Source of the DNA: a virus
IMG/VR virus record: IMGVR_UViG_3300020451_000305
Location: 1 to 58,380 of that record
DNA length: 58,380 bases
Direction: 5' to 3' (one strand)
In this document: one piece after another, positions 600-54,889 of the stretch
Numbering within the stretch: position 1 is the first letter of the stretch
Layout: the number at the start of each line of letters is the position of its first letter
Position numbers and translations under genes: made by a program
Notes under the pieces: generated by a model
What the model was told of the DNA's origin: nothing
Database searches by the model: none
Seen by the model: only the letters and a program-made list of their open reading frames with translations

Positions 600-602
600 T
601 AA

Positions 603-5039: not shown

Positions 5040-5043
5040 TTAG

Positions 5044-24254: not shown

Positions 24255-24262
24255 TATTTATG
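24255..24262 (-). promoter_or_regulatory. Probable late promoter core CATAAATA
   Basis: CATAAATA on the minus strand overlaps the stop codon of the YHYH protein and lies 24 bases before the ATG of the 549-residue fibre gene. It fits the NATAAATA form of cyanophage late promoters with one difference from the T4 consensus. The gap also contains CCCCCCTACT close to the ATG. Confidence 0.5.
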
Positions 24263-26420
24263 TAAGGTCGAATTCATAATTAGTTGCGTCAAGTCTAATA
24301 TTATTTCTAGTAAAGTCTGGGTTATTATTGTCCCTATCAAAAGGAACTGAAGTCATATCAAATTTACCGACATTACTGTCCCACTTCAAAATACCAGATG
24401 TATCTTGTTGACTCGTTCCACCTGTTACGGTGAGGATTGCTAAGTTACTTGAAAGAGGTGAGTTAGATGCTTGTGTCTGTTCTCCAACAGGACCTATACA
24501 CACACATCTATACCTGTAACCTGACATAAACGCTTGTGCTACTACTTGTAAGGAAGAGTTATTCTGTCCTGTAAGGTTAGCCCAAGTAAATCCACCATCG
24601 GTAGATACTTGCCACTGGTAAGCAATAGTACCAGCTTCAGGTTCAATTACAGCAATCAAACTAAAAGTTTGTGTACCACCATCAGCAATAGTTGCATTGG
24701 TAGGTTGATTTGTAATTACCAGACTAGGTGTTTGTGGTGTGCTACTACCTCCTTCACTTTCACCTCCACTAGCAGGAGGTGCACCAACACCTTGGTTGCT
24801 AGGTATATTTAGCGTCTGTTTTGATGAAAGACCAAATATGTATGGAAACTTAGGAGTTAGGTAACGATTTGGAATTACAGTAATGGTACTGGTTCCAGAC
24901 ATACCCGAATGGAATTGACAAAAATAATATAAATGTGATGGTGCAGTTTCGCCAACTGTAATTTCCATATAAGCACCAGCAGTACCAGGTGTACCCACTT
25001 GAGTAACACCTGATGTGTATGTAGTACCAGCACCGTGAAAACCATCAGATGCGTCAGATAATAATAAATTATGATTCAGGATGGAAGGATCAGAAAGTAT
25101 GAACTTATATGTACTACCTTTAATAAATGTTAAGTTTGGATAAAGTGTTCCATCAATTCTATATTTGTTACCATCAGTTTCATTTGTAACTGTTACTACG
25201 TACTCTTTAGTCTCAGTTTGATCTTCCCATACTGTTGTAAAGTATGCAAAGGTTCCACTTGGAAATTCTGGAGTATTACAGAAACGACCATTATAAACAT
25301 CTAAATGTCTACCAGATGTATCAGCATTATATTCATAATCTTCCATCAATGCTCCTAAAGGAGGATTAGCAAAAGTTGTACCATATGTAGGACGACCAGT
25401 AGCAATACTGGTTTTCTGTTGATATCCAGTTTTCATAAGAACAACTGGAGATGTATTATCTGTAGGTAAATGATATCCGTAAGGTCCATATACAGGATAA
25501 CCATCAAATGCAAATCCTAAAATTTTAGAATGCCCATCAGGGTGACGCATATTATCCTGTCCATACTGACTCTGACCATAATAATCATTGTAAGAACCCA
25601 TAACTTGATTTGTTTTCCAACAAGTCAACATATCAGCATCGTGATAATGATATTGTCCAGATGCTTCAGGATGTCCACCACAACCATCCTCACCAAATGT
25701 CACCATTGCGTCATCACCAGCAGAAACCCAATGGAATCCTGAAGGAGGTTGACCAACAGTGCTGCTAAGATTTAATTGATTACCTTGTCCTGTGTGATAA
25801 TGACACCAATAATGAAGTGTTGATGGTGCATTACTAGGTACTACCCAAGTTATTGTACGTGTAGTAGCAGAGGTAAACTGCATAACGTACTCCATCATAG
25901 TTTTAGTAACACCATCTAACTTATAAGTGACACCCATCATATAATGATCTCCACCAGCTAACTCTCCATCACTAGATGTACTGAACATCATTGGGTGGTG
26001 CATAGCATTGTAATTAGCATTAGATGTTGCTGATTGATCAAAAGTATATGTTGCTCCAATCTTAATATCAAATGCTGGTTTTTCTATACCATTAAAATAA
26101 AATACACCTGTAGATTGTCCACCAACACTATCTACACCTACTGTAACTGACACATTATATGCGTCAGGACCATTGGCAGCACTAGAATTGTATATTGCAA
26201 CTCCATTAGCACTTAAACCAATAATTCCTACTGGTGTTGAACCAGAAGCAGTTGTATTTTCTCCACCCCTATACAAGAAAGAATGGTTAAAAGTATATGC
26301 TGCTGGTGTATATGGATTACTTACATTAGGAAATGTGCCATAAGACACAGGAGTTGGCATCCCATCACCTGTTATGGTTAATATCTTCGTCGCTGGATTG
26401 TAAGTACCTTCTGCTGCCAT
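24258..26420 (-). CDS. YHYH-domain protein with two cupredoxin-like domains and an Ig-like domain
   Basis: 720 residues. Domains by eye: a first cupredoxin-like domain (about 95-225) with HHPMMFST and YWCHYHTGQGNQL; a YHYH domain (about 240-400) with the literal motif YHYHDAD, then ILGFAFDGYPVYGPYGYH, LMEDYEY and NGRFCNTPEFPSGTFAYF; a second cupredoxin-like domain (about 420-525) with LNHNLLLSD and YYFCQFHSGMSG, a complete His-Cys-His-Met set; and an Ig-like domain (about 590-690) with QPTNATIADGGTQTFSL, YQWQVSTDGGFTW and YRYRCV. In the first cupredoxin the Met position is Gln. Its ATG overlaps the stop of the giant ORF. Surface binding by the tail is the likely role; no enzymatic activity can be claimed. 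Confidence 0.85.
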   Translation of the reverse strand: MAAEGTYNPATKILTITGDGMPTPVSYGTFPNVSNPYTPAAYTFNHSFLYRGGENTTASGSTPVGIIGLSANGVAIYNSSAANGPDAYNVSVTVGVDSVGGQSTGVFYFNGIEKPAFDIKIGATYTFDQSATSNANYNAMHHPMMFSTSSDGELAGGDHYMMGVTYKLDGVTKTMMEYVMQFTSATTRTITWVVPSNAPSTLHYWCHYHTGQGNQLNLSSTVGQPPSGFHWVSAGDDAMVTFGEDGCGGHPEASGQYHYHDADMLTCWKTNQVMGSYNDYYGQSQYGQDNMRHPDGHSKILGFAFDGYPVYGPYGYHLPTDNTSPVVLMKTGYQQKTSIATGRPTYGTTFANPPLGALMEDYEYNADTSGRHLDVYNGRFCNTPEFPSGTFAYFTTVWEDQTETKEYVVTVTNETDGNKYRIDGTLYPNLTFIKGSTYKFILSDPSILNHNLLLSDASDGFHGAGTTYTSGVTQVGTPGTAGAYMEITVGETAPSHLYYFCQFHSGMSGTSTITVIPNRYLTPKFPYIFGLSSKQTLNIPSNQGVGAPPASGGESEGGSSTPQTPSLVITNQPTNATIADGGTQTFSLIAVIEPEAGTIAYQWQVSTDGGFTWANLTGQNNSSLQVVAQAFMSGYRYRCVCIGPVGEQTQASNSPLSSNLAILTVTGGTSQQDTSGILKWDSNVGKFDMTSVPFDRDNNNPDFTRNNIRLDATNYEFDLT

Positions 26421-29400
26421 TAGTTGTCATCGAATATTTGATCAGGTGTGAAGTTATCAACAGTTGTTGCACCGATGTTGATTGTCAATGTAGCAGCGTT
26501 AGAGAGTGTAGGTGTAGCACCTGTGGATGTTAATCCGACTCTAAATTCATCGCCACCATCACCCTGAGTCGTGACAGGAGTAGTATAAACACTTGATGTA
26601 GCACCATCAATATTTATCCAAGTATCAGTTCCGTAATCCTTCTTCTGCCACTGATAATTGATTGTATTTCCACTAGGTGTTGTGGTTGCAACTACAGTAA
26701 ACGCAGCAGTCTGACCTTGGTTAACAGTTACGTTAACTGGTTGTGAAGCAACTGCTATAAGAACTTCACCTTGTGCTTGAGATTCACCTGTTGGAATGTA
26801 ATTAGGATCGTAGATATCAATACCACCATTAACACCTTCACCTGTAGGTCCTAAGAAGGTATCTGCAACTGTTGTTGAAACAGTAACTGTAGGTTGTACA
26901 TATCCTTGTCCTGCGTTCTTAACATCAATACGTGCGAGACCAACAAGTGCTTTGATCTTACCACCAAAACCAGAGGAGGAAATCACATCAACGTTTGGAC
27001 GAGATGTATAACCATCACCTGAGTTTGTAAGTATTGCTTCAGTAATACGTCCTTTCTCAATAGTTGCAAGGGCATCTGCGTTACGTCCACGTACAGATCC
27101 TGTATACTCGAATGTAATTAGAGAGTTAGAAGATTCAATAAGAGCAACTTCTCTTTCAAATTCTTCACCTTCAATGAATAAGTTATCTCCAGCTTCAATA
27201 GGAGGTACGACTGTTGCAGCAATAACGTCAACATCAGAACCAACGTAAGAGAATGCAACGAATGTAGAACCAGCACGAGGAACTTCAGAGAAGATAATAC
27301 GTGAACCAACAAGTTCAAAACCAATACCTGGTTCCTGAATAACACCATTTAACTGACAGATAATGTTATTTTCAGGTAATATCGTATTACTTTGTACACC
27401 ATCAGTTAGTGTTAGTGAGTAGAAGACTCCAGCTAACTTCAAGTTGAATGAATTACGTAATGAATCAAAGTCGAATGATATATCATCTAACTGTCTTAAC
27501 TTACCTACGTAAACACCGTGGAAACTAGATCCAGCAGCAGGAGCTTCAGTAAACTGAATATTATCTGAGAACGCAGTAAATGCGTTATTACCGCCTGGTG
27601 GTTGTAGAATACCATTCACAAATATCATCATATGTCCAGCAGGATCTGGGAAGTATGCTGTACCGTTAGTTTGAGTTAATTTAAAGTTTTTCTGTACTCC
27701 GTCAAATCCTCTAAAGAACCTTCTAACACGACCACGTAAAGTCTTAGCAACAGAACAAGCACCTCTGAATCCATAATCACCGATGATCTGAGCATTCTTG
27801 ACGAATGTTCCAGAAGTATCACCCAAATGAATGATCGCACGAATACCAATTTGTTCAATTTTTTCGATTCTTCCATATGCACTCGTATTTGTAATAGTTA
27901 CCGCAGCAATTCCTTGTGTATAAACACTTGGGAAGTTTGAACCAGCAGGAATCTTAGAAAGTGTATATGCAGCGTCACCAGCAACAACTGTTAAGTCATC
28001 ACCAATAGCAGAGAATCTACCTGTTTCATTTGCAAGGTATACGTAATTGTTATCAGCATCGTGCTCAGTAACAACAAATGTATGTCCTACAGACTGTCCA
28101 GCGTTCTGTAATTGTAAGGTATCACCAACTTGGAATGTATCACTAACTCCAGTATCAGTAATTAACGCAGAATATGTAAATCTGGTAATCGTTGTTGTAT
28201 GGAGATACTCACCAAAGTTAGGTAATTGATTGAATCCTTCAACCTCAATAATCTGATCAGTAACAGAACCGTAAATAACATCACCAGGTTCAAACGAACC
28301 TACTACAGTGGATACATCATATGTTACTCGACCTGATTGATTGTCAAGCAATGAACCATCATTATTTCTAACAATAAGAGCATTTGCTTTTCCAGAGTCT
28401 TGCTTACTGTATATTATATCCGTAGCGATAAATTCACCCTGTTTGAAGTTGACAAGGATACGTTTATGTGGAGATGCTGATGCAGTAGCAGTTGCACCTG
28501 ATGTAACACCCTCAAGATTATCTGAATTTGCGAATGTTCCAGAAGTCATTACTATCTTAATATAAGTTGCATTGTCAGTTGCAAGAACTGTACCAGAATT
28601 TCCTGTAGCACCTGTCTTAACAATAACCTCACCATTTGTAAACTTAACAGCTCCACTTGTATGAGTTACTGGAACATACTCTACTTTGTATAGAACGTTC
28701 GCAAGGTTATCTTGTATTCTGATTACTTCAGCATATGCACCACTTGTACCACCGAAGAATATATCAGCAGTATTAATACCACCACCTATAGGTGTAGGAA
28801 TATCTCTAGTACCATATGTGGTTTCAACACGTTCGATACCGTTATTAACACCAACAGAGAATGTATGAATTTGACCAGGTGTGCCAGGTGTAAGACTTGT
28901 TATTACATCTCCGTCAATATATTCTGCTAGGTATATTTTGTTTGCAGTTGTATTTGGATGGATATAATATTGTGGTCTATCAAGTTCTGTAATAGCAGTA
29001 CCAAGAACAATATAATTAACTAAATCGTATGCTTCAAATTTATGACCAACAGAATCTATAGAACCATCAGTATTGACAGCAACACCAACATCAACAGGTT
29101 CAGTTAGATATACAGTAGGAAGTGAGGATTTCTCAAGACCTGTCATTACTAAGTGGAATAATTGATGAATCTTATGTACAGCAGTTGCAGTAGGACGTAA
29201 TTCTCTATTAGTATAAGGAACCTCAGAGTTATTAGGACCTGGGTTGAGACAATCTTGCTCTACGGTATTAACCATATATTCTTTTATTGCTTCAGCGTGA
29301 TATATCAAGTATGTTCTAAAGACACCAGGATAAGCAACAAAGTTACCATTACTATCAAACCAACTATTAACTAATTGAATAGTCGCTATATTACCACCAG

Positions 29401-32400
29401 TAATTATATCGTATATCATTGCCTTACGGATATTTGTACCAAATACAATTTCAGCAGTATATCCTGTGTAATTATTAACTGACTTATAATATGCTTCTTT
29501 ATCAATATACTCGTGGTTAAACATCAATAATTTTGCTGCCTGTCGATACATCTCAGGTGCACCACCTAATGTATCCTCAATTAAGTCTGATAATGTTGTA
29601 GCAGCAGATGTTACGTTGTAACAAATACCACCACCACTGAAGAGTGTATTACCAGAAGAATAAGGTATAGGAGTAGAAGTCTTAGTAATACTTTGATTTA
29701 CAAGGTAACTACCATTTCCAGCAGCAGCTTCTCTGATAACACCTATTGGTATAGAGAATAATGTATTGATAGAAGACGCTACAACAGCACATTCACCATT
29801 ACCAGCAGTGTCATATGTGATTGTTGTATCTCTTACAGAAGCACGTTCACCTGTCAGTGGCCATTCACCTGGTAGTGTTCTTGTAATATTATCTAAGTAT
29901 GATCTTGGATTACTTGTATTACTTGAATCAAATAGATTGACAGTAATATTCATCAACGTTGTAATTGCAGATGCTTGGTTAGAACAACGAGCTGCTCCTC
30001 CACCACCTTGTACCCAGTTGACTGCATTAGAACTAGCACTTACAAATGTGTGAGCATAATTTCCACCATACTCTACAGCACCAGATGTTGCACTTACAAA
30101 TGTATGTGGATATTGTTCACTTGTAGGTGTTGGGTTTACATTAACCTTAATACGTCCATTTCTAAATCTAATACCGTGAGGTGTAGCAGATACAAATTGA
30201 TGTGTATAATTTCCACCAACACTGACTGAGTTTGCAGCAGCACTAATGAATGTATGAGTAGTTGTGTTTGTAGAAGGAGTTCTACCAGATGCTAAAACGT
30301 TAACTGTGATTGTTGTGTCTGAAGCACTCTTGACTGTTAGAGGAACATCATATGCTCTATCTTTTTTCCAAGTAATATTACCAGAAGTAGAAGTTTGATA
30401 TGTATGAGTTGTTGTGTTTGTAGAAGGTATCTCAGTAGATAATAAAACAGTAACCTCAAATGTATTTGAAGTTACGTTAGATATCTCTAACCAAGATCCA
30501 GATGCAGGGTCAGATGTTCTTGGATATGTGTGATCAGTTTGATAGTTATCTTCTGCACATCTGAATGTTATAGAATTATCAGCAATTTTTATTTGATCAC
30601 CATTTGCAAATCCGTGTTGGGGAACACGAAGAGTCATTACACCTGTTTGTCCACTATATGATGCGTCAGTTGAGGTATGAGTTGTAGTTGTTGTTCTAGG
30701 ATATGAGTGAGTTGTTGCGTTATTATCTTCTAAACAAGTAAATGTGAAAGCATTATCAGCAAGTTTAATGTGTGCACCAGCAACTAAACTATGATTACCG
30801 ATTGTGATAACCATATCACCTGTTGTTGGGTTATATACAGCATTAGATGGACTGTATAATTGTGTTGGAGATGTACCTACCTGAACTTCAAATGTATCAT
30901 TAGTTTTATTCTGAACAGGAAGATATATGTTATGAGAAGGATCAGTTAAACGAGGATATGAATGAACACTACCATAATTATCCATTGAACAAGTAAAGTT
31001 CAATGAATTAGTGTCAAACATTACCTGATCACCATTATTAAATCCGTGAGCAACAGAAGTGATCACCATAATACCAGTTATAGGATTATATGTTGCTCCA
31101 GTTGCAGTAAATGTAGAATCTGTTACTTGTAAAACTTCTAATGATTTACCACTAGCATAATCTGTTGAACGAGGATAAGAATGGTTGGTTGAATTACCAT
31201 CTTTTGTACAGGTAAATGTAACTGCGTTATCAGGTAATCTGATATGTCTACCAGCAGTAAGATTATGATTACCAATATCTAAGAATAGATTACCAGTTGC
31301 TTCTTCGTAAATAGCATATCCTACATCGTGAGTTCCATTAGATGTTGTACCAACGTCTACAGTAAATGTATCATTTGTTCTTGCAGTGATTGGTAGAGTT
31401 GCACCAGAGGCTGGATCCCAAGGTCTTGGATATGATTTGTTAGACTGATTACCATCAAATGCACAATTAAATACTAATGAATTTGGATCAAGAGTAATAC
31501 TATCACCAACCTGAAGATTATGTCCTGCTTTTGTAAGAACTAGATTACCGTTTGTTGGAGTATATGCTGCATCTGTAGGAGTTAACTGTCCAGTTGTTGC
31601 ACCGTTGTTATCAATAGTAATAGTGTTATCGTAGACAGCATATCCTTCAGTATATCCATTAACAGTAACTAACTCTTGTCTCATTACCTGAATAGCAATA
31701 TCTCTTGCTTGTTCAAAGATATACTTAACTTGTGTTGCTTGTGAGTTAATGTGTTGTACAGCATTACTAATAGTGATATAGAAATCACTAGCATACCAAA
31801 CAATATTGTTACCACCGTGTGCTAAGTTAAATGTAACTGCTTCTAGAACATCAATTACATCATCAACACAAGACTGATAACCATATCCACCAAATGTAAG
31901 ACTAGAATATTGTGACAAACCACGACCTACAGCAGTAGTAGCGATAAATCTTAAATTGTTTTTAATTTCATTAGAAGCATCATAATATTTGTTACCAGCT
32001 TCAGTTGATGTTGCAAATCCACCACCAGCGTTATAATCGTAATCAGGACGTGATTCTATACCACCTCCACCACCACCGAGTGCTCCACCTGATTCGTATG
32101 CAGATTCATAGGGATTAAACCCAAGTTTGTTCTGGATGGCGAGGATTGCCATATCACGTGCCATTCTCATAGCATAGATGGTTTCATCTGCTTGATCTGT
32201 CACGTGCTTCAGACCCATATCAGTATTCAAATATAATTCAGATGCTTCGTATACTTTCTCGTTAACACTAAATCTTAAATCGTGCATAACACCTTCTAAG
32301 ATATCAACAATATCATCTTCACAATGAACCTTACCACCAGGTACTCTGAAGTTGTAATGTTTGAATGCACTTTGTTTAACTGTTAGATCAACTGCTTCTT

Positions 32401-35400
32401 CAGCAATAGTACGTTTGTTAGCACCAATAAGATTAGCAGCATCTAAAGCACGATGTGATCCTGTGTAGATCTTTGGATCTGGAGGATAGAATGTACTTTC
32501 TGTTATTATGTTGCCTGTTAAGTCGTAGTTAACTGCTGCATCATATGCTTTTCTAAATGCTGGTAAATCAGTGTATTGGAACTGGAAGAAGTCATCAATA
32601 GTATTTGCATCTGTAGAACCAGCAGGAAGATTAGCAATATTCTCATTACGAGATAGTAATAAGTTCTGTAGTGCTTTTTCCATCAACCACTTAGCATATC
32701 CAATCGCTTCTAGCATTGGAAGTAACTCGTGTTCTACATCACCTATAAATCCAGCACTATTCAAATATGAATCAATAATTCCTTGAGCATTAGAGTTACC
32801 ACCAGTAATTAAATCTGTAGCAATAGCAGGAATAATATGATCCCTAATATCTCTTACACACTTCTCACGACCAGGTGAACCACCAGGTATATAAAGTTGA
32901 TTTACATCTACGTTATTGATATTAACTGTATACCTATCTTCCAACCAGTAAACAACTTCATCAGCAATACATTTACGGTTGAAGTATAGTAAATCAGCAC
33001 CATCTCTAAATCTATGTCCTGTAGGACCTAATACATCAAGAAGGTCATCCATCAATGACATAATGTAAGTTGTGATGTTACTACCAGGTGTAGCACTGAA
33101 GTAATTTGGAACACGAATACGTGTTGTGTACTCACCAGTTAAATCAGCTTGATCTTTTGTAATTACATCGATACAAAGTTTAGCAACTTCTCTCCAAACA
33201 TACATTGATTGAAGTAGTTCTTCATTAACGTGTGCTAATTCACCTTGTTGGTTAGCAAGATATCCTCTACCAATAATAATACTATTATAATTACCACCAT
33301 ATCTAAGATCTTTATAGATTGCAGGAATGATATACTCATAAGTATCTCTTAAACACTTATTTGTACCTGATAATGATGTACCAGTATCGCCAGGTATCAC
33401 AAAGTCTGGATACTTAGCTTTCATCCTACCCACTGCTTCTTCAGCAATCCAGAATTTGTTTGTTTCAATAATATCTGCACAATCTCTTTCTACCTGACGA
33501 CTAAGATCAACCTCTTCAGTCATTATTTCACTTCTCCACAATTCTATACCATCAGCAGATGCAGTTGATGTAATTGATTGTTGGAAGGTAGCATATATTT
33601 CACCTTTAATAATAGGAATAGGTGCCTCACCATCAAATCCAAATGATAGATTTAGATCAGAAGAATCATATACTGCTGATGGTATAAAGGATGCTGTATA
33701 TTCAGCAATTCCTTTCTTGACCATAAAGTTTTCCATATGACCAGTGAATGCTGTAGAGTTAGAAGCATTTGCACCAATCTTAAGTGGTAAGTTACCATAA
33801 TTTGTATTATCTGTATAACTTCCTGCTAATGTTCCACCAACAAATAATCTTGTAACACCAGTAGAACGAGTTACAGCAATATGTGTCCAAGTATTTGCAA
33901 CTACCCCAGTAGATGTAATTCTATCACTATTACCTACGTTCCAACGAATTTGATTATTATTAAGTAGTAGATAGAATGCACCAGTATCAGATGTGCTACT
34001 ACGGAAGTCTAGTAACATCTGTACTCCACTAACAGAAGTTGCTTTTATCCATAATTCCATAGTAAAGTCACCAGCAGCAACAGAACCATCACCTAGAGCA
34101 AGTTTATCAGTTGCTGGATATGTTAGATGTGCACTACCATTGAAATCTAATGATCCAGTACCAACAGCATAATCTAGATTATCTACAGTAACACCAACAT
34201 TAGTTAATAGAGTGTTAGTAATATATTCTCCAACAGTAAATGCTCCACTAGGATCTTTACTGTAAATCCATTTGTTACCACCATTAGAACCAATAACTGA
34301 TGCAGTATTTCCAGATGTTATACCTTTAACTGTATCACCAAATACGAAGAATCCACCTGTTGACTTATTCTTATAACTGTGTTTAACACACTTAATAGTC
34401 TCAGCATCTTGGAAAGCATATGCTGGTTCAACTCTTTGTAAGTTAAAGATAGACCATTGATATGTTGTTTTATCTGCCCCAGTAGGATCTTGAAGAGTAT
34501 CAGTAATAATCTTAAAGAAGTTAGTTACAGCAGATGTTTGGTTTACACAAGCATTATCACCTACTGGATATGAAAGTCTACCTGATGAGTAATCTGCTTG
34601 AGGTGCAGTCTTAGTTACTGCTGCTTGGAATGCTTCTCTTGTACCAGGTGATGCAGTTGTACCAAGATTGGTAATAAGAATGTCCATCAATGTAGTGATG
34701 GTTGATTGTACAGCAGCACAATTACCAGGATCATTAGTAATTGAACTATCAATAAACTGAACCCAACCGTGTGAGGTATCTACTTTAGCAACAGCATTAT
34801 TTTGTATAATTTGAACTGCCATTGTCTTTGCTTTTGTGAAAGCATTTACAATAGTGTTTCTGTCACCTGAAGTAACACCATAGTGAAGAATACGATCAGT
34901 TGCTTCCCAGATAAAGTCATTACCACCGTGTGCAGTGTTATAACCTAATGCTTCAATAACATCAACAATATCAGATAGACAATGCTCATCTCCACCTGAA
35001 ACTGTATAACCAGGATTCTGTAATTTAGCATAATGTAATGACTCGTGAGCAATATACCATTTGTTAGCAAGTAATAGTGCTCTAGCATCACCGTGACTAT
35101 TATCAGTCACCACATACTCAGGAGTTACAGTTGTATCTCTCCACTGTTGTTTTGTAGTATGAGATGCAACTATAACTTCCATATTGATGCACTTAAGAGC
35201 AAGATCTCTTGCTCTCTCCATTGCATATACAGTCTGTGCTACTTGCCCATCAACGTGATATATTGAGTTTCCTTGAACGTAAGTATTAGCGATATCCCAA
35301 ACTTCAGAGTTACCATCAAACTTAACTTGCCAAGCAATCATATTAAGAACATCAACTATATCATCAATACAGTTTTGATTACCTGTTGGAATAGTAAAGG

Positions 35401-41400: not shown

Positions 41401-44400
41401 TATATACAAGACTTGTTGTATTTGGAGATAATTCACCAATAACGTAGATATTGTGTGGATTTGAGTTTTCAACATATACTGACTTAAAACTAAGGTTCTT
41501 AGTTCCTGATGCTGGTAATGATGGAACTAAAGCACGTTTCCAAAGAAGACGACCATCACTATTAAACTTAGCAAGCATACCTGATGTATCACCATTAGGT
41601 ACAGAACTATGTCCACAAACATAGAATGTACGATCATCTGCTACTTGAATATCATTAATAGAAACGATTCCAGACTGCTCTTTTAGGAATGCTAGGAAAT
41701 ATGATGCTTTCTTAAATCTTTGTGGATGTGATACTCTAATCTGTGGAGGATTTGTAGGACTATATCCAGAACCAGAGTTAACAATATTAGCACTATTAAC
41801 AGCACCAGCCTCTGTTCTATTCAAAGTAAGTTGAAAATCTTGACCTTGAGTAGATATTAATTCATATGTTGGAGGAATATCATCAGAATAACCTAAACCT
41901 GTCTGAGTTATAGTAACATTTTCAACACCAGGTATAACTTTAACTTTATATGTCTTATTGGTAGAATCTAATATTGGTGTCTCTTCAACAATAATTTCAT
42001 CACCATTACGTAATTCGTGTTCAGTTGCAGTTGTAATACGTCCATATGGCATATCTGATGACATATAAGAGGAATATCCCTGTATAGAAAGACCAGCAAC
42101 AGCACTTACTTTTGCAGAAGCACCAAATCCTTGTGTATCTTCATTATTAAAGAACAATTTATCACTAACTTTATAAGAAATACCTGGATTTTCAATAACA
42201 AATCCATCTATTTGAGCATCTTCAAATTTAGTAGTAGTTTCAATATCAATATCAACTTCAGATCTTGTAGATACTTTAGGGTAGTAATCAAATAATTGTA
42301 ATACAGGTTCTTCTGCAATAGTATAAGGTGTAGTATCTTCTAAGTTATTGATAACACCATCACGGTTTGTATCTTCAATTTCAAAGATTAACTCAAGACC
42401 ATCTTCAGTTACAAGAATATCAGTATCTTGGTTTGGTTGACGATCAATATCTATGTCAACATTTTCATAAGGATCTCTAAATCTAACAACATCAGCAGGA
42501 ATATTTGTTTGAACAGCATTCTGACTGAAGTTCCAAGAATCAGGTTGTGAGTATAGTTGAGGACCGCATACATATGGGAATACTGGATTACCAGCGTCTG
42601 ATGCGTCAATACCGACAAAGTATGCGTATACACCTTCAGGATATTCAGGAGTCTTACAAAAACGACCATTGTATTGATCTAAGTCACCTTCTTGGAAAGC
42701 ATACTCATAATCTTCAATAAATGATCCTGCTGGATAATCTGTTAGTACAGGACCATCTGCTCTAACTGGATTTGGGTTGGTTGCACTATCAAAAAGAAGT
42801 ATTGGTTTAATTTTATATGAAGATCTAATACGACGTACACCAGATGATTGGTTTGTAGCGTCAATATATCCATAAGGACCGTATATTGGGTTTCCATCAA
42901 ATGCCCATCCTAAAATAGGAGAATGTAAATATCCTGTTGATAATTCTTGTAATTGCTGAGTTGATTGATTTTTAAATACGTTATCACCTAAAACATATCT
43001 TAATTGTTTTGGATCTGATACGTGTGCGTATTCACCACCATACTGTGTATTATATCCTGCAAACACATAACCACGTGCTCCGTCAAAGTTTGATCCAAGT
43101 TCTTGCTGAAGGTTACGAGTCCACTCAAATACATTAGCGGTGAATGTTCCTTGAGAACCAACTGCTTCAAGACGAATAGTAGTGCTACCTGTAGTATATC
43201 CAATACCTCTGTTTACAACACTAACACCAATAACTTTACCTCTATCTTCTCCAACGCTACCTATTGACGCTTTTGCTACAGCACCATATCCATCTCCACT
43301 AATGATGATCTCTGGAGCAGTTGTATATCCACTACCAGCAGCAATAATAGCGATAGATACGATTCTACCGTTAATAATAATTGGTTGTGCTACAGCACCT
43401 TCACCTGAGTTTAACTTAATTGTAGGAGATGAAGTATATGCAGATCCTGCTGATGTTATTGCTACAGACTGAATAGGACCTCTAACACTTGCAGTAGCAG
43501 TTGCACCACTACCTTCACCACCTGATATAGAAACGTCAGGTTGTGATGTATATCCTTGACCTGGTGATTCAACAAGAACTCTTGATACAACACCATTTGT
43601 TATAACAGCAGTCGCAGTAGCACCAAATCCACCTCCACCAACAATAGAAACTAGAGGAGATGATGTATAACCAGTACCACCAGTGTCTACTTCAATTTCA
43701 CTTAAAGCACCGTTAACAGTAACACTAGCAGCAGCACCTGAACCGCCACCACCACTAATCTCAATAATAGGAGGATTTGCAGCATCATATCCTTCACCAG
43801 CAGAACCAATAGCGATTGATGTTATACCACCAAACTTAATCTTGCTTTCTGACTTATATGACCACACAGATACACCATTAACCCAACAACCAATCGGACC
43901 AAATGATGTGTCATCACGTTTTGATACAGTTTCTATGACACGTGGTATACGTACAAGTTTACGTTGATTACCTGGTAATAGTGCTGATCCAACAAATGGA
44001 CCTACTTCATAGTTTGGTATACCAGATGATGCAATATAAGAATACTGTGTATTAAAGAATGTATTTTGTACGTTCGTTGTAAAGTCTTGGATAGCAACAC
44101 TTATACCTTCTTCTGTAGATTTTCCTTTGTTCAAGTCAACAGATAATAAGATATTACCTTGAGGAGAAGCATCAGATGGAGCTGGGATATTATATTCAAA
44201 TATAGTTTGACTGATACGTGATGTGACGGTAAATGTACCATTGTATACAGTTGGGTTTGCACCGTAGATTGTTACAGAGTCACCAACAAGAAGACCGTGA
44301 TTATTTGAACAAGTAACAGTAGCAGTCTGATTATTAAGTCCACCTGGTACAATTCCAGTAACGCTAATGAGTTTCTTAACGTTATACAACCAAGAAGTAA

Positions 44401-47215
44401 CTCTTTGGTCTATAGATGTAGATCCTAAAGATGCAACATTTAATTTGTCACCTGGTAAGTAATATGAACCAGTGTCATTCAATACTGTAGATTTTGCATC
44501 TGCAATACCTAAAACACGTAATTTAATCTCATTTGACGCACCCTGATTAACATATACAAAGATATCTGAGAAAATTGTAGTACCAGCATCCCAATCCTCT
44601 ACCACTCCGTTCTTAGAACGTGTACATTCTATAAACTGGTTGAGTGTTTTTTCCTTATATTGCACTACTTCAGAATCATTGATGCGGATTGTACCGTTTC
44701 TTTCTGGCCAACCAATAGTAGAATCCACTGTAATAATCGATTCTGTTGTAGATAATGGTTCAACAAGCGTAGTTTTATACGGAATTGTGAACGTTCCTAG
44801 TAAAGTCTCTTCAGATATTGCTAATTCATATACTGTACCCACACCAGTGTTGATGGCAATTACGTTTTCAATCAATGCTGACGCTGCTTGAACTGATGAA
44901 TCAACAGGGTCAATATACTGCATAAGTTGTGAATCCTGTAGATCTTCAGCAGAACCACTAATTAAGTCAGCACGAAGTACGGTATCTACGTTCCAAGTAG
45001 CCGCAGATGGTTTGATAACCTCATCTTTTGGATAAGAAACATCAACATTTTCGGAGTATAGCATCTTGAAAAGATACTGAGTTGATATCTTCGTACCTTT
45101 AGATGCGTAAAAATCACTAATAGTTTTGATTATTTGCGGAGCATTGACTGTTTCATAATCAATCTCAGCGTTTGGTAGATATTGATTTACGTAACGATTA
45201 TATAATTCTTTGGCAAATAAGGTATCTAAGTTTTTAATTCCAGCAGATACATTATGTGAAGACTGTACAGTATCTGACTCTTTAGAATATACTTGATTTC
45301 CTTTTTGATCATAACTGGTTACAGCAGAAACACCACGCTTACAATTAACAAAAGCAGATGGTTGATATCCACTTCCTTTACTATGAATAGTGAAACCTGT
45401 AATTTCCCCAAAACCAACGTCACAAGATGCTTCTGGAGCAGGAGGAGCAGCAATAAAAACTTGAGGAGGTTCTGTATCTGAGTATCCAGTTCCAAAACTG
45501 GTTATATTGATATCAGTAATTTCACCGTTGAATATGGTTGCAACAGCAGTTGCTCCTGTACCACCTATAGGTTCGTTTGCAACATCCTTTCTATTATCAA
45601 CGATATAAACAGAAGGTGCATCAGTATATCCTTTACCACCAGTTAATAACTCAATATTTGTTACTCTTCCACCAGTTACACTAACATCAAGTATTTGTGC
45701 ACCCACAGGATCTATGACACGTGCCCTTGGAACAGTCATATAACCTTGACCACCTGATACTACAGTAACACCGTTTACCATACCGTCAGAGTCGATTGTA
45801 GCGACTACATTAGCAACAATAGCGTTATCACCAGTAGGAGGATCTAAGTAAATTAATGGAGGTGATGTATATCCTGAACCTTTAGCAATAACAGTAAATG
45901 AATCTGCTTTAATGCTTGTATCGTTTAATAATGGAGAACTTACTTGTGCACCACCTGGATTGATAAATTTGATTGATGGAATTCGATCATATCCACTTCC
46001 TGAACTGTCAACTATAAGTTGTGATACACCTTCGAGAGTATCGTCAACTATTGCTCTAATCTGAGCAGTTGTACCTTCTGTATCAGCAGGAGGGTCTACA
46101 ACAACTGTAGGAGGGTTATTTGCAGAGTAACCTTGTCCTGAAAATAGTAATTGAGTCTCTTTGATACCATTTACAAGTGCTTCCGCAGTTGCACCAGATC
46201 CAGTTCCTAAAGTTGATGCAATACTGACTCTAGGAGAAAAACCTAACCTATATCCACTACCACCATCTTTTACAATGACTGCATTTACTTCATCTCCACT
46301 AATTTGTGATATAGCAGATGCACCAGAACCAAATTGAGGTGCAATCAATTCTATAGAACGTACAACTATCTCAGTTCCTTCTGCAACCTCTGTTTTAAAT
46401 ATTAACTTGTCTTCAAATATTGTATATTCTTCAAATGGTCTTTTTTCAACTCTATTGACAACTACTATAGTAGAAACAGTAGATAAAGGTGAATAACTAT
46501 TGCCAGCTTCAAAAAGATGGAACTCTTTACCATTCTTTGCTACAGTAATCGTATCCAGTGTCTTAACTGGTATACTTGTGTAACCAATTAGGTATCTAAC
46601 AGTATTGATAGCACCTGTAAGTTCTCCTGTAGGGGTAAGAGGAGGCGTTACAAGACGTAGTTTATCTCCTTCTACAAAATAGTCTATATTAGGGAATTTG
46701 AACTCGTTATTGACGATTACAAGCAAATGTTGTGCACTTGAAGGTGATACTGGATCTCCAAGTAACTTTAATTCAAATTCTGTCTTTACTCCATCAAATT
46801 GGTTCGCTATAGGTTCAAATTCTTGTATCTTTCTGTCAAATTCCTGTTTATTAACACCTGGCGTAAAAATAATGTCTGGTGAGTGAGTTATACTCGCATA
46901 ATATATGACTTCATTGTCAATTTGAATAGTTCCGTCTTTCTCTAAGAAATAATTGACATTTTCTGCTATAATATTCTTCTGAGTAGGATCAACTGCCTCT
47001 AAAACAGCAGATTTTGATGAAAGGAAGTTTGGATCAAATTCTCCAGATCCAATATCAGCATAACGCAAAATATTCCCAAGAACATCATAGGGTTTACCTG
47101 ATTTTTCTTGAGATTTGTAGTATTGCTCTAAAAAAGCAACAAACTGTGTGTTATCATCTTTTATAAACTCAGGAATCTGATCCTGAATTCTATGTGAGAC
47201 GGTTACTGCCTTCAT
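26420..47215 (-). CDS. Giant mosaic baseplate/tail structural protein (6931 residues)
   Basis: One uninterrupted 20.8-kb ORF that starts 12 bases after gp6 and ends in TAATG with the YHYH gene. It occupies the gp7 position of T4, but homology to gp7 is not shown. Rough layout: N-terminal wedge-like region with IPEFIKDDNTQFVAFLEQYY (1-250); GSGY beta modules (290-620, 1100-1330, 1700-1800, 2990-3170, 6770-6850); a KDGTIQIDNEVIYY motif near 110 and a related one near 880; a YHYH domain (1430-1540); a propeller-like stretch (1830-2200); LamG-like domains (2240-2450 and 4340-4500); Cys-led helical repeats (3900-6000); HSYPR repeats (5200-5590); HTFVSA repeats (5600-5710); and a C-terminal Ig-like domain with YQWQKKDYGTDTW (6820-6915). 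It is a presumed virion protein of roughly 0.75 MDa. Confidence 0.88.
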   Translation of the reverse strand: MKAVTVSHRIQDQIPEFIKDDNTQFVAFLEQYYKSQEKSGKPYDVLGNILRYADIGSGEFDPNFLSSKSAVLEAVDPTQKNIIAENVNYFLEKDGTIQIDNEVIYYASITHSPDIIFTPGVNKQEFDRKIQEFEPIANQFDGVKTEFELKLLGDPVSPSSAQHLLVIVNNEFKFPNIDYFVEGDKLRLVTPPLTPTGELTGAINTVRYLIGYTSIPVKTLDTITVAKNGKEFHLFEAGNSYSPLSTVSTIVVVNRVEKRPFEEYTIFEDKLIFKTEVAEGTEIVVRSIELIAPQFGSGASAISQISGDEVNAVIVKDGGSGYRLGFSPRVSIASTLGTGSGATAEALVNGIKETQLLFSGQGYSANNPPTVVVDPPADTEGTTAQIRAIVDDTLEGVSQLIVDSSGSGYDRIPSIKFINPGGAQVSSPLLNDTSIKADSFTVIAKGSGYTSPPLIYLDPPTGDNAIVANVVATIDSDGMVNGVTVVSGGQGYMTVPRARVIDPVGAQILDVSVTGGRVTNIELLTGGKGYTDAPSVYIVDNRKDVANEPIGGTGATAVATIFNGEITDINITSFGTGYSDTEPPQVFIAAPPAPEASCDVGFGEITGFTIHSKGSGYQPSAFVNCKRGVSAVTSYDQKGNQVYSKESDTVQSSHNVSAGIKNLDTLFAKELYNRYVNQYLPNAEIDYETVNAPQIIKTISDFYASKGTKISTQYLFKMLYSENVDVSYPKDEVIKPSAATWNVDTVLRADLISGSAEDLQDSQLMQYIDPVDSSVQAASALIENVIAINTGVGTVYELAISEETLLGTFTIPYKTTLVEPLSTTESIITVDSTIGWPERNGTIRINDSEVVQYKEKTLNQFIECTRSKNGVVEDWDAGTTIFSDIFVYVNQGASNEIKLRVLGIADAKSTVLNDTGSYYLPGDKLNVASLGSTSIDQRVTSWLYNVKKLISVTGIVPGGLNNQTATVTCSNNHGLLVGDSVTIYGANPTVYNGTFTVTSRISQTIFEYNIPAPSDASPQGNILLSVDLNKGKSTEEGISVAIQDFTTNVQNTFFNTQYSYIASSGIPNYEVGPFVGSALLPGNQRKLVRIPRVIETVSKRDDTSFGPIGCWVNGVSVWSYKSESKIKFGGITSIAIGSAGEGYDAANPPIIEISGGGGSGAAASVTVNGALSEIEVDTGGTGYTSSPLVSIVGGGGFGATATAVITNGVVSRVLVESPGQGYTSQPDVSISGGEGSGATATASVRGPIQSVAITSAGSAYTSSPTIKLNSGEGAVAQPIIINGRIVSIAIIAAGSGYTTAPEIIISGDGYGAVAKASIGSVGEDRGKVIGVSVVNRGIGYTTGSTTIRLEAVGSQGTFTANVFEWTRNLQQELGSNFDGARGYVFAGYNTQYGGEYAHVSDPKQLRYVLGDNVFKNQSTQQLQELSTGYLHSPILGWAFDGNPIYGPYGYIDATNQSSGVRRIRSSYKIKPILLFDSATNPNPVRADGPVLTDYPAGSFIEDYEYAFQEGDLDQYNGRFCKTPEYPEGVYAYFVGIDASDAGNPVFPYVCGPQLYSQPDSWNFSQNAVQTNIPADVVRFRDPYENVDIDIDRQPNQDTDILVTEDGLELIFEIEDTNRDGVINNLEDTTPYTIAEEPVLQLFDYYPKVSTRSEVDIDIETTTKFEDAQIDGFVIENPGISYKVSDKLFFNNEDTQGFGASAKVSAVAGLSIQGYSSYMSSDMPYGRITTATEHELRNGDEIIVEETPILDSTNKTYKVKVIPGVENVTITQTGLGYSDDIPPTYELISTQGQDFQLTLNRTEAGAVNSANIVNSGSGYSPTNPPQIRVSHPQRFKKASYFLAFLKEQSGIVSINDIQVADDRTFYVCGHSSVPNGDTSGMLAKFNSDGRLLWKRALVPSLPASGTKNLSFKSVYVENSNPHNIYVIGELSPNTTSLVYNPDIVVIKYQSGFDNANNPDGIVQWQRDIAGISGTTRRDYATSIHLDQLGRVMIGGYTDSNSLSPDDMWVALLDLDGSVMEKRKIASASGNEHLHQLLWKANDTFLFCGISDPAGSSDIILGETFYDGVTIEVQWSKIITNSSYKFTDPTMSIDEYGSVYVTATAVNTDGKNYGVLYTKFDNDVYTSTVVSKMFVPTGTYASCKNGGVKFDVFGNIDLSCSVERDFNNVESVTSKISWNSGNILNSAAVSETNGIGYAATVVSSDNSGDTIVAGNKVESVQLAIFNWNTADNLLEDTYNDTLATGTNKAWYATGNAVIDQTKKYDGTSAIKLDAPNSLALQYGADVATSWTVEGFWALGSTQYAANNTTPHLYTVTDNVANEVKVGLDASSGANAGKVFLVLGGSTIYSTATTYVTPFNAEAFVHVAFSKERVGVGNYVYRVYVNGVEAINNTSTTVDVNLKDVTIGPKGTPSSSDSWIGWIDNVAVSQSATRIEAYTPALVTGTNTTTQAFIYKLDKDKTKLGSFTLNDVETGHILTTASNSSYTFNTQSTTVSPWAIGPAGIQILDYGDVVANHVPGSLTFTSTDETFASRTATIPTPGGKKLLLTTTVIPKFYFRDAKYSSIDLVKTLTFNQNATFTKGSTLQQYSVIGGADVVSAYGVIVDTGVNFVKIGKIIGTFDNTKLLKSTAGDANELSQSFVEESTYPQWVTNNPYTTGDIVYNDKKWYTASSTATSGTIAPVHTGGTTTDGNVNWAYTSASGIFIVDLANTSYSGGTLNQFASWKPFSASDYTIKIEEIYSDSTFIKGDTIDADAVNLTFSVDATGKVATFGGLLGVKKISIAATLSKDVVPSGSLVNTDIVYCSATSRHNFEVNDIIFTENFSSNEYNGSFFIKEVFSSRDFTYNLRSTAVQDPTFSGSGSSVSNVNIYAKHPKFLFVRGHQYIFDLDDNSNLGYYLSFSKDNQFKLEYPFINIIREGTPGFTDDDSPTPLVKFIINEDVTNISYYFDPSRTLASNSPVGEGSFIDVIPSPYAGTFTVTGTSNAGKTFDFALLNEPEKTTAAVGNNEFGLPRSSYSTTSSKAIGPIASIKLVNPGGFYQKLPIVSDIASNREIEKVRITNGGTEYVNGIYYNVPIGGDGEGASCNITVTDDGDFTGVITAVELTSAGKGYTTASIDIDAIPGILGPLLAGSGGILDVVIPSEGSGASVFLQGKSIGKIKKLKNNEFGFGYSHDYTLKPEITFPVNLQLFNTALLAQIKITDPGSGYTSTPAVVIEGGGGTGAAADAIVKNNRLSEIIIKDPGSGYSSEPSVTLKSEFNYVVNVDLGYLQFNFPHGITNGAQVQLRAESLGSTVGILPKPSSAGLVSLSSNQTYYAIAGEANGLESDQLRISLTQLDAESGSYITFLTQGEGRQVLLTEVFGGQATAIVETSRFLEGELVYQGSSLELASATGYVSTNEGWQIGPRILKLENYDGVWLSGERVTGQVSRASGLIDNLSIARGTLEIASLTTTPGQFIDDVGKPSEIVQKIQDSYFYQNFSYVIKSQTPINQWRKPVLETNHPVGFNLFGELAITGGKDISGRKVVSDLVKEVNINSFTNINQITSFANAQPIYTEFNNTEVLFRQKRLTNSEEILTSIVKKIDNISEQFDGIKTQFPLNVEGSSVTATEDQMFILLNGVAQSPGTSFSTTGPSIVFSEAPKAPSRIKFRQIQFSQLVITRMTFSTIGGIFPLLGNTVRSLQNEGTALVIDSGVDYIDVLSVVGSFQINDNVLASSTGFNAVLSNVQQLTSKTIYEQGERITNLSGKFAIIEENNLLDGVISDDLVVSRTSGTAAYETGEFEIKFNDIIYSARSKIAASVISIAPYQDAISSQIIDTVDLSPSSTFFGLVFQRVPSITYPNVILDNISETVINPTELYTDTANNQDFLDFENVRNQEIRYDNLTGTDFAAGTDIRLKKLFFTNSSMRIQPDTRAFNAAEALEKNAEFIAEEAVGLMLAFYPSFTIPTGNQNCIDDIVDVLNMIAWQVKFDGNSEVWDIANTYVQGNSIYHVDGQVAQTVYAMERARDLALKCINMEVIVASHTTKQQWRDTTVTPEYVVTDNSHGDARALLLANKWYIAHESLHYAKLQNPGYTVSGGDEHCLSDIVDVIEALGYNTAHGGNDFIWEATDRILHYGVTSGDRNTIVNAFTKAKTMAVQIIQNNAVAKVDTSHGWVQFIDSSITNDPGNCAAVQSTITTLMDILITNLGTTASPGTREAFQAAVTKTAPQADYSSGRLSYPVGDNACVNQTSAVTNFFKIITDTLQDPTGADKTTYQWSIFNLQRVEPAYAFQDAETIKCVKHSYKNKSTGGFFVFGDTVKGITSGNTASVIGSNGGNKWIYSKDPSGAFTVGEYITNTLLTNVGVTVDNLDYAVGTGSLDFNGSAHLTYPATDKLALGDGSVAAGDFTMELWIKATSVSGVQMLLDFRSSTSDTGAFYLLLNNNQIRWNVGNSDRITSTGVVANTWTHIAVTRSTGVTRLFVGGTLAGSYTDNTNYGNLPLKIGANASNSTAFTGHMENFMVKKGIAEYTASFIPSAVYDSSDLNLSFGFDGEAPIPIIKGEIYATFQQSITSTASADGIELWRSEIMTEEVDLSRQVERDCADIIETNKFWIAEEAVGRMKAKYPDFVIPGDTGTSLSGTNKCLRDTYEYIIPAIYKDLRYGGNYNSIIIGRGYLANQQGELAHVNEELLQSMYVWREVAKLCIDVITKDQADLTGEYTTRIRVPNYFSATPGSNITTYIMSLMDDLLDVLGPTGHRFRDGADLLYFNRKCIADEVVYWLEDRYTVNINNVDVNQLYIPGGSPGREKCVRDIRDHIIPAIATDLITGGNSNAQGIIDSYLNSAGFIGDVEHELLPMLEAIGYAKWLMEKALQNLLLSRNENIANLPAGSTDANTIDDFFQFQYTDLPAFRKAYDAAVNYDLTGNIITESTFYPPDPKIYTGSHRALDAANLIGANKRTIAEEAVDLTVKQSAFKHYNFRVPGGKVHCEDDIVDILEGVMHDLRFSVNEKVYEASELYLNTDMGLKHVTDQADETIYAMRMARDMAILAIQNKLGFNPYESAYESGGALGGGGGGIESRPDYDYNAGGGFATSTEAGNKYYDASNEIKNNLRFIATTAVGRGLSQYSSLTFGGYGYQSCVDDVIDVLEAVTFNLAHGGNNIVWYASDFYITISNAVQHINSQATQVKYIFEQARDIAIQVMRQELVTVNGYTEGYAVYDNTITIDNNGATTGQLTPTDAAYTPTNGNLVLTKAGHNLQVGDSITLDPNSLVFNCAFDGNQSNKSYPRPWDPASGATLPITARTNDTFTVDVGTTSNGTHDVGYAIYEEATGNLFLDIGNHNLTAGRHIRLPDNAVTFTCTKDGNSTNHSYPRSTDYASGKSLEVLQVTDSTFTATGATYNPITGIMVITSVAHGFNNGDQVMFDTNSLNFTCSMDNYGSVHSYPRLTDPSHNIYLPVQNKTNDTFEVQVGTSPTQLYSPSNAVYNPTTGDMVITIGNHSLVAGAHIKLADNAFTFTCLEDNNATTHSYPRTTTTTHTSTDASYSGQTGVMTLRVPQHGFANGDQIKIADNSITFRCAEDNYQTDHTYPRTSDPASGSWLEISNVTSNTFEVTVLLSTEIPSTNTTTHTYQTSTSGNITWKKDRAYDVPLTVKSASDTTITVNVLASGRTPSTNTTTHTFISAAANSVSVGGNYTHQFVSATPHGIRFRNGRIKVNVNPTPTSEQYPHTFVSATSGAVEYGGNYAHTFVSASSNAVNWVQGGGGAARCSNQASAITTLMNITVNLFDSSNTSNPRSYLDNITRTLPGEWPLTGERASVRDTTITYDTAGNGECAVVASSINTLFSIPIGVIREAAAGNGSYLVNQSITKTSTPIPYSSGNTLFSGGGICYNVTSAATTLSDLIEDTLGGAPEMYRQAAKLLMFNHEYIDKEAYYKSVNNYTGYTAEIVFGTNIRKAMIYDIITGGNIATIQLVNSWFDSNGNFVAYPGVFRTYLIYHAEAIKEYMVNTVEQDCLNPGPNNSEVPYTNRELRPTATAVHKIHQLFHLVMTGLEKSSLPTVYLTEPVDVGVAVNTDGSIDSVGHKFEAYDLVNYIVLGTAITELDRPQYYIHPNTTANKIYLAEYIDGDVITSLTPGTPGQIHTFSVGVNNGIERVETTYGTRDIPTPIGGGINTADIFFGGTSGAYAEVIRIQDNLANVLYKVEYVPVTHTSGAVKFTNGEVIVKTGATGNSGTVLATDNATYIKIVMTSGTFANSDNLEGVTSGATATASASPHKRILVNFKQGEFIATDIIYSKQDSGKANALIVRNNDGSLLDNQSGRVTYDVSTVVGSFEPGDVIYGSVTDQIIEVEGFNQLPNFGEYLHTTTITRFTYSALITDTGVSDTFQVGDTLQLQNAGQSVGHTFVVTEHDADNNYVYLANETGRFSAIGDDLTVVAGDAAYTLSKIPAGSNFPSVYTQGIAAVTITNTSAYGRIEKIEQIGIRAIIHLGDTSGTFVKNAQIIGDYGFRGACSVAKTLRGRVRRFFRGFDGVQKNFKLTQTNGTAYFPDPAGHMMIFVNGILQPPGGNNAFTAFSDNIQFTEAPAAGSSFHGVYVGKLRQLDDISFDFDSLRNSFNLKLAGVFYSLTLTDGVQSNTILPENNIICQLNGVIQEPGIGFELVGSRIIFSEVPRAGSTFVAFSYVGSDVDVIAATVVPPIEAGDNLFIEGEEFEREVALIESSNSLITFEYTGSVRGRNADALATIEKGRITEAILTNSGDGYTSRPNVDVISSSGFGGKIKALVGLARIDVKNAGQGYVQPTVTVSTTVADTFLGPTGEGVNGGIDIYDPNYIPTGESQAQGEVLIAVASQPVNVTVNQGQTAAFTVVATTTPSGNTINYQWQKKDYGTDTWINIDGATSSVYTTPVTTQGDGGDEFRVGLTSTGATPTLSNAATLTINIGATTVDNFTPDQIFDDN
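29340..35480 (-). repeat. Cys-led helical repeat families within the giant ORF
   Basis: Family A, about 100-150 residues per unit, has EAV...YP.F..PGG...C..DI.D......DL..GGN. I find copies with CIDDIVDVLN (near residue 3948), CLSDIVDVIE (4077), CLRDTYEYII (4619), CVRDIRDHII (4783), CEDDIVDILE (4964) and CVDDVIDVLE (5115), plus a degenerate copy with YDIITGGN (5935). Family B is shorter, of the form C...(S)AITTL..I..DTL: CAAVQSTITTLMDIL, CVNQTSAVTNFF, CSNQASAITTLMNI, CAVVASSINTLFSI and CYNVTSAATTLSDL. The copies interleave with LamG-like, HSYPR and HTFVSA segments. Function is unknown. Confidence 0.7.
30440..31590 (-). repeat. Five tandem HSYPR repeats in the giant ORF
   Basis: Each unit is about 70-80 residues: YNPTTGDMVITIGNHSLVAG, (D/H)xI(K/R)LxDNAxTFTC, two to three residues, DxN, then HSYPR (variants KSYPR, HTYPR) and a spacer ending NDTFEVQVG. 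I count five copies, with the conserved Cys and SYPR/TYPR in all. The pattern is reminiscent of repeats in other marine phage structural proteins. A beta-rich shaft or adhesion module is inferred. Confidence 0.75.
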
Positions 47216-54038: not shown

Positions 54039-54288
54039 TATTCTTAACTATCTCTTCAAGTTTATTTAGTCTGAAAAACAAAGCGTCAAAGACTTCTACC
54101 AGATTACTATAGTGTGATTCACCAGGTATCTTATACTGGTACATATTGGCACCACGTGCTAGTAGGTTCTCGTGATTCCTTACTTGAGTCGCTAGATTCT
54201 TGATACTCTCAGCAATAATTAATTTCTGCCACTCGTCTTCTTCCTCCTTAGTCTTAAACTCAGGTATATTGTCGTAATTTAGATTCAT
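54019..54288 (-). CDS. Small helical protein upstream of the 1136-residue gene
   Basis: 89 residues from the ATG at 54288 (MNLNYDNIPEFKTKEEEDEW), which overlaps the TAA of the upstream oxygenase gene as TAATG; this coupling decides the start. An upstream start would re-read the end of the oxygenase gene. The rest is probably helical (KLIIAESIKNLATQVRNHEN, YSNLVEVFDALFFRLNKLEE). No family recognised. Coupling on both sides suggests joint translation with the oxygenase and the 1136-residue structural protein. Confidence 0.7.
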   Translation of the reverse strand: MNLNYDNIPEFKTKEEEDEWQKLIIAESIKNLATQVRNHENLLARGANMYQYKIPGESHYSNLVEVFDALFFRLNKLEEIVKNSASVPD

Positions 54289-54842: not shown

Positions 54843-54889
54843 TGAGTCGGGACGACGTTCGGGGCACACGGTTATATAGGGTTTAATAC

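Follow-up and report, generated by a model that had tools for sequence, protein, structure and literature searches.

The IMG/VR virus record IMGVR_UViG_3300020451_000305 (58,380 bases, analysed over its full length and called the window below) encodes a giant protein at the place of gene 7 of phage T4, and the long C-terminal arm of this protein carries seven modules that in all probability descend from the phycobiliprotein (bilin-binding globin) family. It is these phycobiliprotein-like modules in a virion arm, with the pigment-binding Cys kept, that appear to be new here; the giant size is not. Among the titles and abstract beginnings listed by searches of open-licence PMC papers for such domains in phage proteins and for phage bilin genes, none reports a phycobiliprotein-like domain in a virion protein (subscription journals and supplements lie outside this scope). 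The open reading frame (ORF) and its seven helical modules, of about 120 residues each within residues 3903-5992, are located as follows:

26420 to 47215, minus strand: giant ORF, 6931 amino acids (aa); gp7-position baseplate protein, PHROG 701 family
35159 to 35509, minus strand: putative module M1, residues 3903-4019, attachment-site Cys3949 (profile, alignment)
34775 to 35122, minus strand: putative module M2, residues 4032-4147, Cys4079 (profile, alignment)
33131 to 33517, minus strand: putative module M3, residues 4567-4695, Cys4621 in CLRD (the modelled module, 33125-33526)
32639 to 33037, minus strand: putative module M4, residues 4727-4859, Cys4786 (profile, alignment)
32108 to 32476, minus strand: putative module M5, residues 4914-5036, Cys4965 (profile, alignment)
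31652 to 32014, minus strand: putative module M6, residues 5068-5188, Cys5116 (profile, alignment; tblastn query)
29240 to 29575, minus strand: divergent putative module M7, residues 5881-5992, attachment-site Cys absent (profile)

Across the loci compared, the same module model recognized 773 domains, many of them redundant, distributed over 159 ORFs. Module lists, filtered beforehand on score and length as well as at 60% or 72% identity, gave two alignments, A1 (43 of 47 listed modules) and A2 (74 of 80); M7 and, respectively, three and five further short or weak modules were dropped. The profile of A1 matched 163 PDB sequences at E ≤ 10 (best E 6.8e-9), and among the best 60 of these, 58 are named as phycobiliprotein subunits and two as "bacterial fluorescent protein" (8u0f). 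When aligned with these proteins, the modules place their invariant Cys, and the Asp three residues after it, at the corresponding residues of the CxRD motif, the bilin-attachment site of phycobiliproteins. Furthermore, the Pfam model PF00502 matches 20 of the 43 members of A1 at E ≤ 1 (best 8.7e-8) and exceeds its cut-off in the window slice 31016-34015 (27.9 vs 22.2 bits). Single modules mostly stay under this cut-off, passing it in five of 30 records. At E ≤ 0.01 the model finds matches in 19 of the 30 records, every listed place lying in a frame of at least 3681 aa, and in none of the eight records without modules.

The AlphaFold2 model of M3 (74 sequences; pLDDT 85.9, pTM 0.81) points in the same direction. 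The 50 VIA matches listed for it are phycobiliproteins or their complexes and 8u0f (Z 11.6-12.3, root-mean-square deviation (rmsd) 2.4-5.0 over 113-122 residues), and the 50 Foldseek matches listed belong to the same family (probability 0.96-1.00). Because sequence profile and fold agree, homology of the modules to phycobiliproteins is very likely. As the alignment of the M3 model starts at about residue 20 of the phycobiliprotein chains (it covers residues ~20-151), the N-terminal helix may be missing in the modules. The modules could alternatively be helical bundles that arose by convergence and are unrelated to phycobiliproteins. Helical models match many things, identity in the VIA matches is 11-17%, the Foldseek E-values for M3 are weak (all above 0.02, best 0.028, none ≤ 0.001), and according to the tool's own warning VIA Z scores below ~13 on helical models may reflect a common arrangement; all of this weighs against descent from the family. 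However, the profile reaches its E-value from sequence alone, with one family among its best 60 matches and the attachment Cys and Asp in register, the structure model of M3 agrees independently, and the PF00502 matches are confined to the large frames described above, which makes convergence a very improbable explanation.

The attachment site is well kept: the Cys is present in 43/43 modules of A1 and 71/74 of A2, and the Asp at +3 in 42/43 and 74/74, respectively. Such conservation at ~20-35% identity indicates strong constraint on the pigment site and speaks against regarding the modules as pigment-less relatives of phycobiliproteins that serve as rigid spacers or surface-binding domains, with a Cys whose conservation reflects a role in folding, in a disulphide bond or in binding a different ligand. 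Nevertheless, this alternative falls only just short of an even chance. The Cys is present in six of the seven window modules, M7 lacking it (and left out of A1 and A2), and Arg at +2, the usual partner in the site, is found in only 21/43 modules of A1 and 31/74 of A2, being often replaced by Asp; both features weigh against pigment binding. Moreover, the arm also contains lectin-like and repeat domains, and M6 also matches some other tail genes, which are annotated as tail fibres (the short tail fiber of Syn1, YapH of P-HM2). On balance, the modules probably keep some ligand at the conserved Cys.

A further point against the pigment-less alternative is that, in the whole records examined, a bilin lyase is present exactly where the modules are. 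In tblastn searches with M6, matches were found in 313 phage records, named after Synechococcus (246), cyanophage (57) or Prochlorococcus (10), and in none of other name. We examined 29 whole records: those of T4 and Mosig, the 16 cyanophages treated in Sullivan 2010 and another 11 cyanophages. Of these, 21 have modules, and the bilin lyase CpeT (PF06206) is present in the identical 21. In the Sullivan 2010 set of 16, whose composition was not our choice, 13 have both and three have neither. Two broader viral scans yielded mostly short contigs, which stayed outside this count. Note that in S-ShM2, ACG-2014d and P-SSM7 no single piece of CpeT was matched at E 0.001, and the cut-off was passed only by summed pieces of one frame (23, 25.4 and 28.6 bits); for these summed matches the E limit was raised to 10, and the same limit gave no match in the eight records without modules. 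In S-PM2, S-CAM1 and Syn1, cpeT is located 0.7-1.5 kb upstream of a module-bearing tail gene, with one to three small genes in between, and in S-ShM2 and S-SSM5 it lies between a tail protein gene and gp5. CpeT was also found in seven of 13 virus records near the window, most of the others being fragments. No CpeT was seen in G003, a 172-kb and possibly incomplete contig that carries the giant ORF, which counts against the association. As for individual records, Table 3 of Sullivan 2010 lists cpeT in 12 of its 16 phages, Syn1 not being among them; the Syn1 record (NC_015288, 19938-20477) has an annotated cpeT with a PF06206 match of 1.5e-35, although the table gives the gene as absent. A sister contig of the window, G001 (locus L603, positions 77061-77951 of the record), has two neighbouring CpeT-like ORFs (146 aa).

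With kinship ignored, Fisher's test for modules and CpeT (21/0 vs 0/8) gives p 2.3e-7. Because this plain value ignores kinship, we regard the association as a lead only. In a gp6 tree of the window and 28 of the 29 records (S-CBWM1, which gave no gp6 match, was left out), the label needs three changes, of which only one is forced by well-supported branches; the association was therefore rejected as statistical proof, since it is mostly kinship with one to three independent changes. Several other observations weigh against a pigmented arm loaded by the phage lyase. S-CREM2 and S-CBWM1 have a CpeS-type bilin lyase and no modules, and P-SSM2 and S-SSM7 have pebS and no modules. Bilin reductases were rejected as partners of the modules, being present in 6/14 phages with modules vs 2/7 without (p 0.66). 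Modules are also present in phages of Prochlorococcus, an organism in which phycobilisomes are absent. Finally, T-type lyases serve the Cys-153 type site according to an excerpt of PMC10452541, and not the Cys-84 type that is kept in the modules.

We infer the place of the protein in the virion, the direction of its arm, the bilin loading and the use of the pigment as follows. The core would join the baseplate wedge beside gp6, and the arm would extend outwards from there to the surface of the host. While the virion is assembled in the cyanobacterial cell, a bilin would be attached to the conserved Cys of most modules, a step in which the phage's own CpeT-type lyase may help, and the virion would thereby carry pigment. 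This sequence of events, from the core in the wedge and the outward arm through CpeT-aided loading to a pigment-bearing virion, has in our view somewhat less than an even chance. More tentative still is the idea of a coloured virus particle with covalent bilins on baseplate arms and tail fibres, in which the modules would be the substrate of CpeT and the pigment would act as a light sensor or shield. If true, a phage-made bilin acceptor would answer what phage cpeT is for; in the part of Sullivan 2010 (PMC3037559) that deals with these genes, the role of phage cpeT is described as unresolved and that of phage pcyA and pebS as a mystery. Likewise, the pigment of the modules in a coloured virion would be a candidate sensor, or shield, behind the light-dependent adsorption that is described for several marine cyanomyoviruses in an excerpt of PMC2984593. 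Taken whole, our explanation of the giant protein is probable.

The giant ORF itself is sound. It starts with ATG, contains no internal stops and encodes a protein of 746.6 kDa; it begins 12 bases from the end of gp6 (47228), and its 3' end overlaps the next gene in TAATG, so the single open frame and both junctions are as described in the initial annotation of this sequence. That annotation had asked for misassembly to be excluded and had named relatives split into several ordinary genes as evidence against a single frame. Other contigs (15 loci compared) cover 20796 of the 20796 bases of the ORF at an identity of at least 95%, and in 12 of 12 tiled contigs the frame is unbroken and unsplit, with lengths of 6354-8596 aa, five of the 12 being longer than the window protein (only contigs with N-terminal, middle and C-terminal loci were tiled, and those without one of the three were left out). 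Misassembly or a hidden frameshift was rejected on the basis of this full coverage and the intact frames; as isolates also have a single coding sequence (CDS) of similar length, the probability of an artefact of assembly or frame is practically nil.

Nor is a polypeptide of this size exceptional, as had been suggested; it is usual in cyanomyoviruses, and the giant ORF by itself is not news. PHROG 701 ("virion structural protein", 6136 positions) was matched by 10 of 10 slices of the protein, over profile positions 1-6121. A tblastn search with the first 2000 aa matched 480 of 50,697 phage records, in 287 of which a single location spans ≥ 80% of the query; most of the 480 are named as Synechococcus phage (375), cyanophage (61) or Prochlorococcus phage (24), the others including Sinorhizobium, Methylophilales and a few more. 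In 19 fetched cyanophage isolates the protein at the gp7 place has 1573-8573 aa (the member from S-CBWM1 having a C-terminal match only), and four of them exceed 6931 aa (P-TIM40, 7351; P-RSM6, 8573; P-SSM4, 7312; P-SSM7, 7124). The gp6 tree groups the window with P-RSM6, S-SZBM1, S-WAM1 and P-TIM40. That the giant ORF encodes the gp7-position baseplate protein of a T4-like marine cyanophage is almost certain.

Homologues have reportedly been detected in virions. According to the proteomic part of Sullivan 2010 (PMC3037559), the 41 proteins that mass spectrometry identified in purified S-SM1 include T4-GC969, and the S-SM1 record assigns GC 969 to SSM1_102, a 6180-aa homologue with three module matches. 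Similarly, the 1937-aa protein at the gp7 place of S-CREM2 was represented by 91 unique peptides (27.2% coverage) in an excerpt of PMC10665884. A passage of PMC9910659 reports mutations, arising during coevolution of S-PM2 with its host, in two very large proteins (3338 and 3779 aa). This phage has two frames with modules, of 3340 and 3792 aa, and judging from the sizes they presumably encode the mutated proteins.

How the giant protein is related to T4 gp7 is less clear. It directly follows gp6, as gp7 does in T4, so the gp7 position holds as originally described. However, BLASTP of the giant protein against T4 gp7 gave no match at E ≤ 1e-5, and the profile of the 874-aa core, i.e., of the homologous protein of Pelagibacter phage Mosig, had no match at E ≤ 10 in the PDB, which includes gp7; calling the protein "gp7" by sequence was therefore rejected. 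The AlphaFold2 model of this core (25 sequences) is poor (pLDDT 55.6, pTM 0.41), which also weighs against a confident assignment. In a Foldseek search with it, gp7 of T4 and of KP1 rank first (E 2.4e-3, probability 0.87 and 0.82), and in VIA gp7 chains rank first, second and fourth (Z 10.5, 10.5 and 8.3) through one domain of 85-92 residues, while the remaining matches of the 50 listed have Z ≤ 5.9, apart from gp18 at 8.8. Because the core model is poor, these matches are a lead only. The wedge-like origin claimed in the initial annotation is partly supported by the predicted fold of a ~92-residue domain and has no sequence link; it is the gene position and a single beta domain that speak for kinship with T4 gp7, and sequence similarity does not. 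A domain of the core also resembles a fragment of the T4 sheath protein gp18 (3fo8; VIA rank 3, Z 8.8, 76 residues).

A gp7-like core would be contrary to a published inference: an excerpt of PMC7029224 states that cyano- and pelagimyophages lack T4 gp7, for which VrlC appears to substitute. If VrlC, encoded after gp8, is the substitute for gp7, then the giant protein is not gp7-like and would be an added fibre, and T4 gp7 is indeed unmatched in sequence by both the giant protein and its core. On the other hand, it is the giant gene that directly follows gp6, and the fold search with the core ranked T4 and KP1 gp7 first (VrlC itself was outside that comparison). We consider a VrlC substitution with the giant as an added fibre unlikely, and keep the gp7-like core as a lead from modelling.

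The protein is built of blocks, of which the modules described above are one kind. The others recognized are:

46886 to 47215, minus strand: N-terminal segment, residues 1-110, common to S-SM2, Bellamy, S-CAM1 and P-SSM2
45371 to 46882, minus strand: block rich in GSGY-type beta repeats, residues 112-615, missing in the shorter relatives S-CAM1, S-SM2, Bellamy and P-SSM2
44006 to 45373, minus strand: core segment, residues 615-1070 (BLASTP to relatives)
42605 to 42949, minus strand: YHYH domain, residues 1423-1537 (PF14240, E 8.6e-29)
36380 to 37102, minus strand: core segment, residues 3372-3612, to which the 874-aa pelagiphage protein aligns
33719 to 33994, minus strand: LamG-like domain, residues 4408-4499 (PF13385, E 5.7e-12)
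30386 to 31630, minus strand: HSYPR beta repeats, residues ~5196-5610 (internal matches down to 1e-49)
26846 to 28843, minus strand: conserved C-terminal region, residues 6125-6790 (isolates share 42-46% identity over this or a longer stretch)

The YHYH and LamG-like domains and the HSYPR repeats had been read from the sequence alone and were recovered here, and the HTFVSA repeats are visible in the translation; Ig-like domains, also proposed, found no Pfam match at E ≤ 0.1, and the phycobiliprotein-like modules had gone unnoticed in that reading. Pfam also gave weak matches below its cut-off (e.g., endosialidase barrel, bCoV_NAB). The HSYPR repeats have no relatives in the PDB at E ≤ 1. Within each repeat there is a single Cys, placed in the motif F-x-C-x-x-D (Cys 5251, 5336, 5409, 5494 and 5553).

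In BLASTP, the protein of S-CAM1 (3032 aa) aligns to window residues 6-122, 620-967, 1219-1582, 2866-3149 and 3368-3638 and is thus without window residues ~123-619 and 1583-2865; S-SM2, Bellamy and P-SSM2 also lack the first of these blocks. The 874-aa Mosig protein aligns at residues 690-811 and 3372-3612 only, and by eye its N-terminus resembles that of the window protein. In this comparison, relatives of the family span 874 to 4156 aa. An ancestral core of ~870 aa has been lengthened by beta-repeat, YHYH, lectin-like and other inserts and by a C-terminal arm of ~3300 aa, which comprises everything after about residue 3640. We ascribe this growth to insertion because the shorter relatives miss blocks of the giant, and the internal repeats support it. 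From the proposal of a fusion or growth by repeat insertion, the insertion part fits the gaps in the shorter relatives; a wedge origin is supported only in part, by fold and not by sequence.

The genes around the giant ORF include further baseplate genes:

47228 to 49312, minus strand: gp6, baseplate wedge (PHROG 219)
49314 to 49721, minus strand: gp25, baseplate wedge (PHROG 261)
24258 to 26420, minus strand: next gene, 720 aa, YHYH-type neighbour (PHROG 25852, 2576)
19139 to 20674, minus strand: gp8, baseplate wedge (PHROG 438)

Three further genes separate gp8 from the giant ORF. The next gene (24258-26420) encodes a second YHYH-type domain, related to the giant's own (PHROG 2576, 25852, 701), and ~430 bases near its start (25748-26177) are missing in the close loci L078, L080 and L265, a block-sized indel. 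Upstream of gp25, a small protein (54288-54869) matches PHROG 274 (labelled DNA endonuclease V) and, weakly, the 2OG-Fe(II) oxygenase family; in P-SSM2, a 2OG-Fe(II) oxygenase gene is located immediately before gp25.

Compared with known systems, the window protein is a member of the giant gp7-position proteins (PHROG 701; e.g., gp7 of P-SSM4, the proteins of S-WAM1 and T4-GC969 of S-SM1), which it resembles in its place after gp6, in family matches from end to end, in length and in being a single CDS. It shares ~50% identity with its nearest isolates over the first 3700 residues, whereas the arm has diverged, and it is not different from them in kind. With T4 gp7 (PDB 5iv5, 5hx2) it shares the gene position, and the core model superposes on the T4 beta domain 760-855 with Z 10.5 and rmsd 3.1 over 92 residues; however, T4 gp7 has 1032 aa and no sequence similarity was found to it, the window protein is 6.7 times longer, and its arm, lectin-like and phycobiliprotein-like parts have no counterpart there. 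The phage CpeT, a T-type bilin lyase confined among the 29 records to the 21 with modules, is proposed as a helper and not as a relative of the giant protein. The modules are like the phycobiliproteins (PF00502: phycocyanin, phycoerythrin, allophycocyanin) in profile, fold and attachment-site Cys and Asp, and differ from them in standing in tandem within a virion protein and in that the best-matching part of the profile extends over positions 9-69 of the 120 in the model. The BBAGs (bilin-binding globins) of other bacteria are, as described in an excerpt of Rockwell 2023 (PMC10151467), likewise phycobiliprotein paralogues outside phycobilisomes. Compared by description, BBAGs are tied to pre-PcyA gene clusters in bacteria, and the excerpted text names phages only for the PcyX/PcyA enzymes, whereas the modules described here are part of a phage tail protein.

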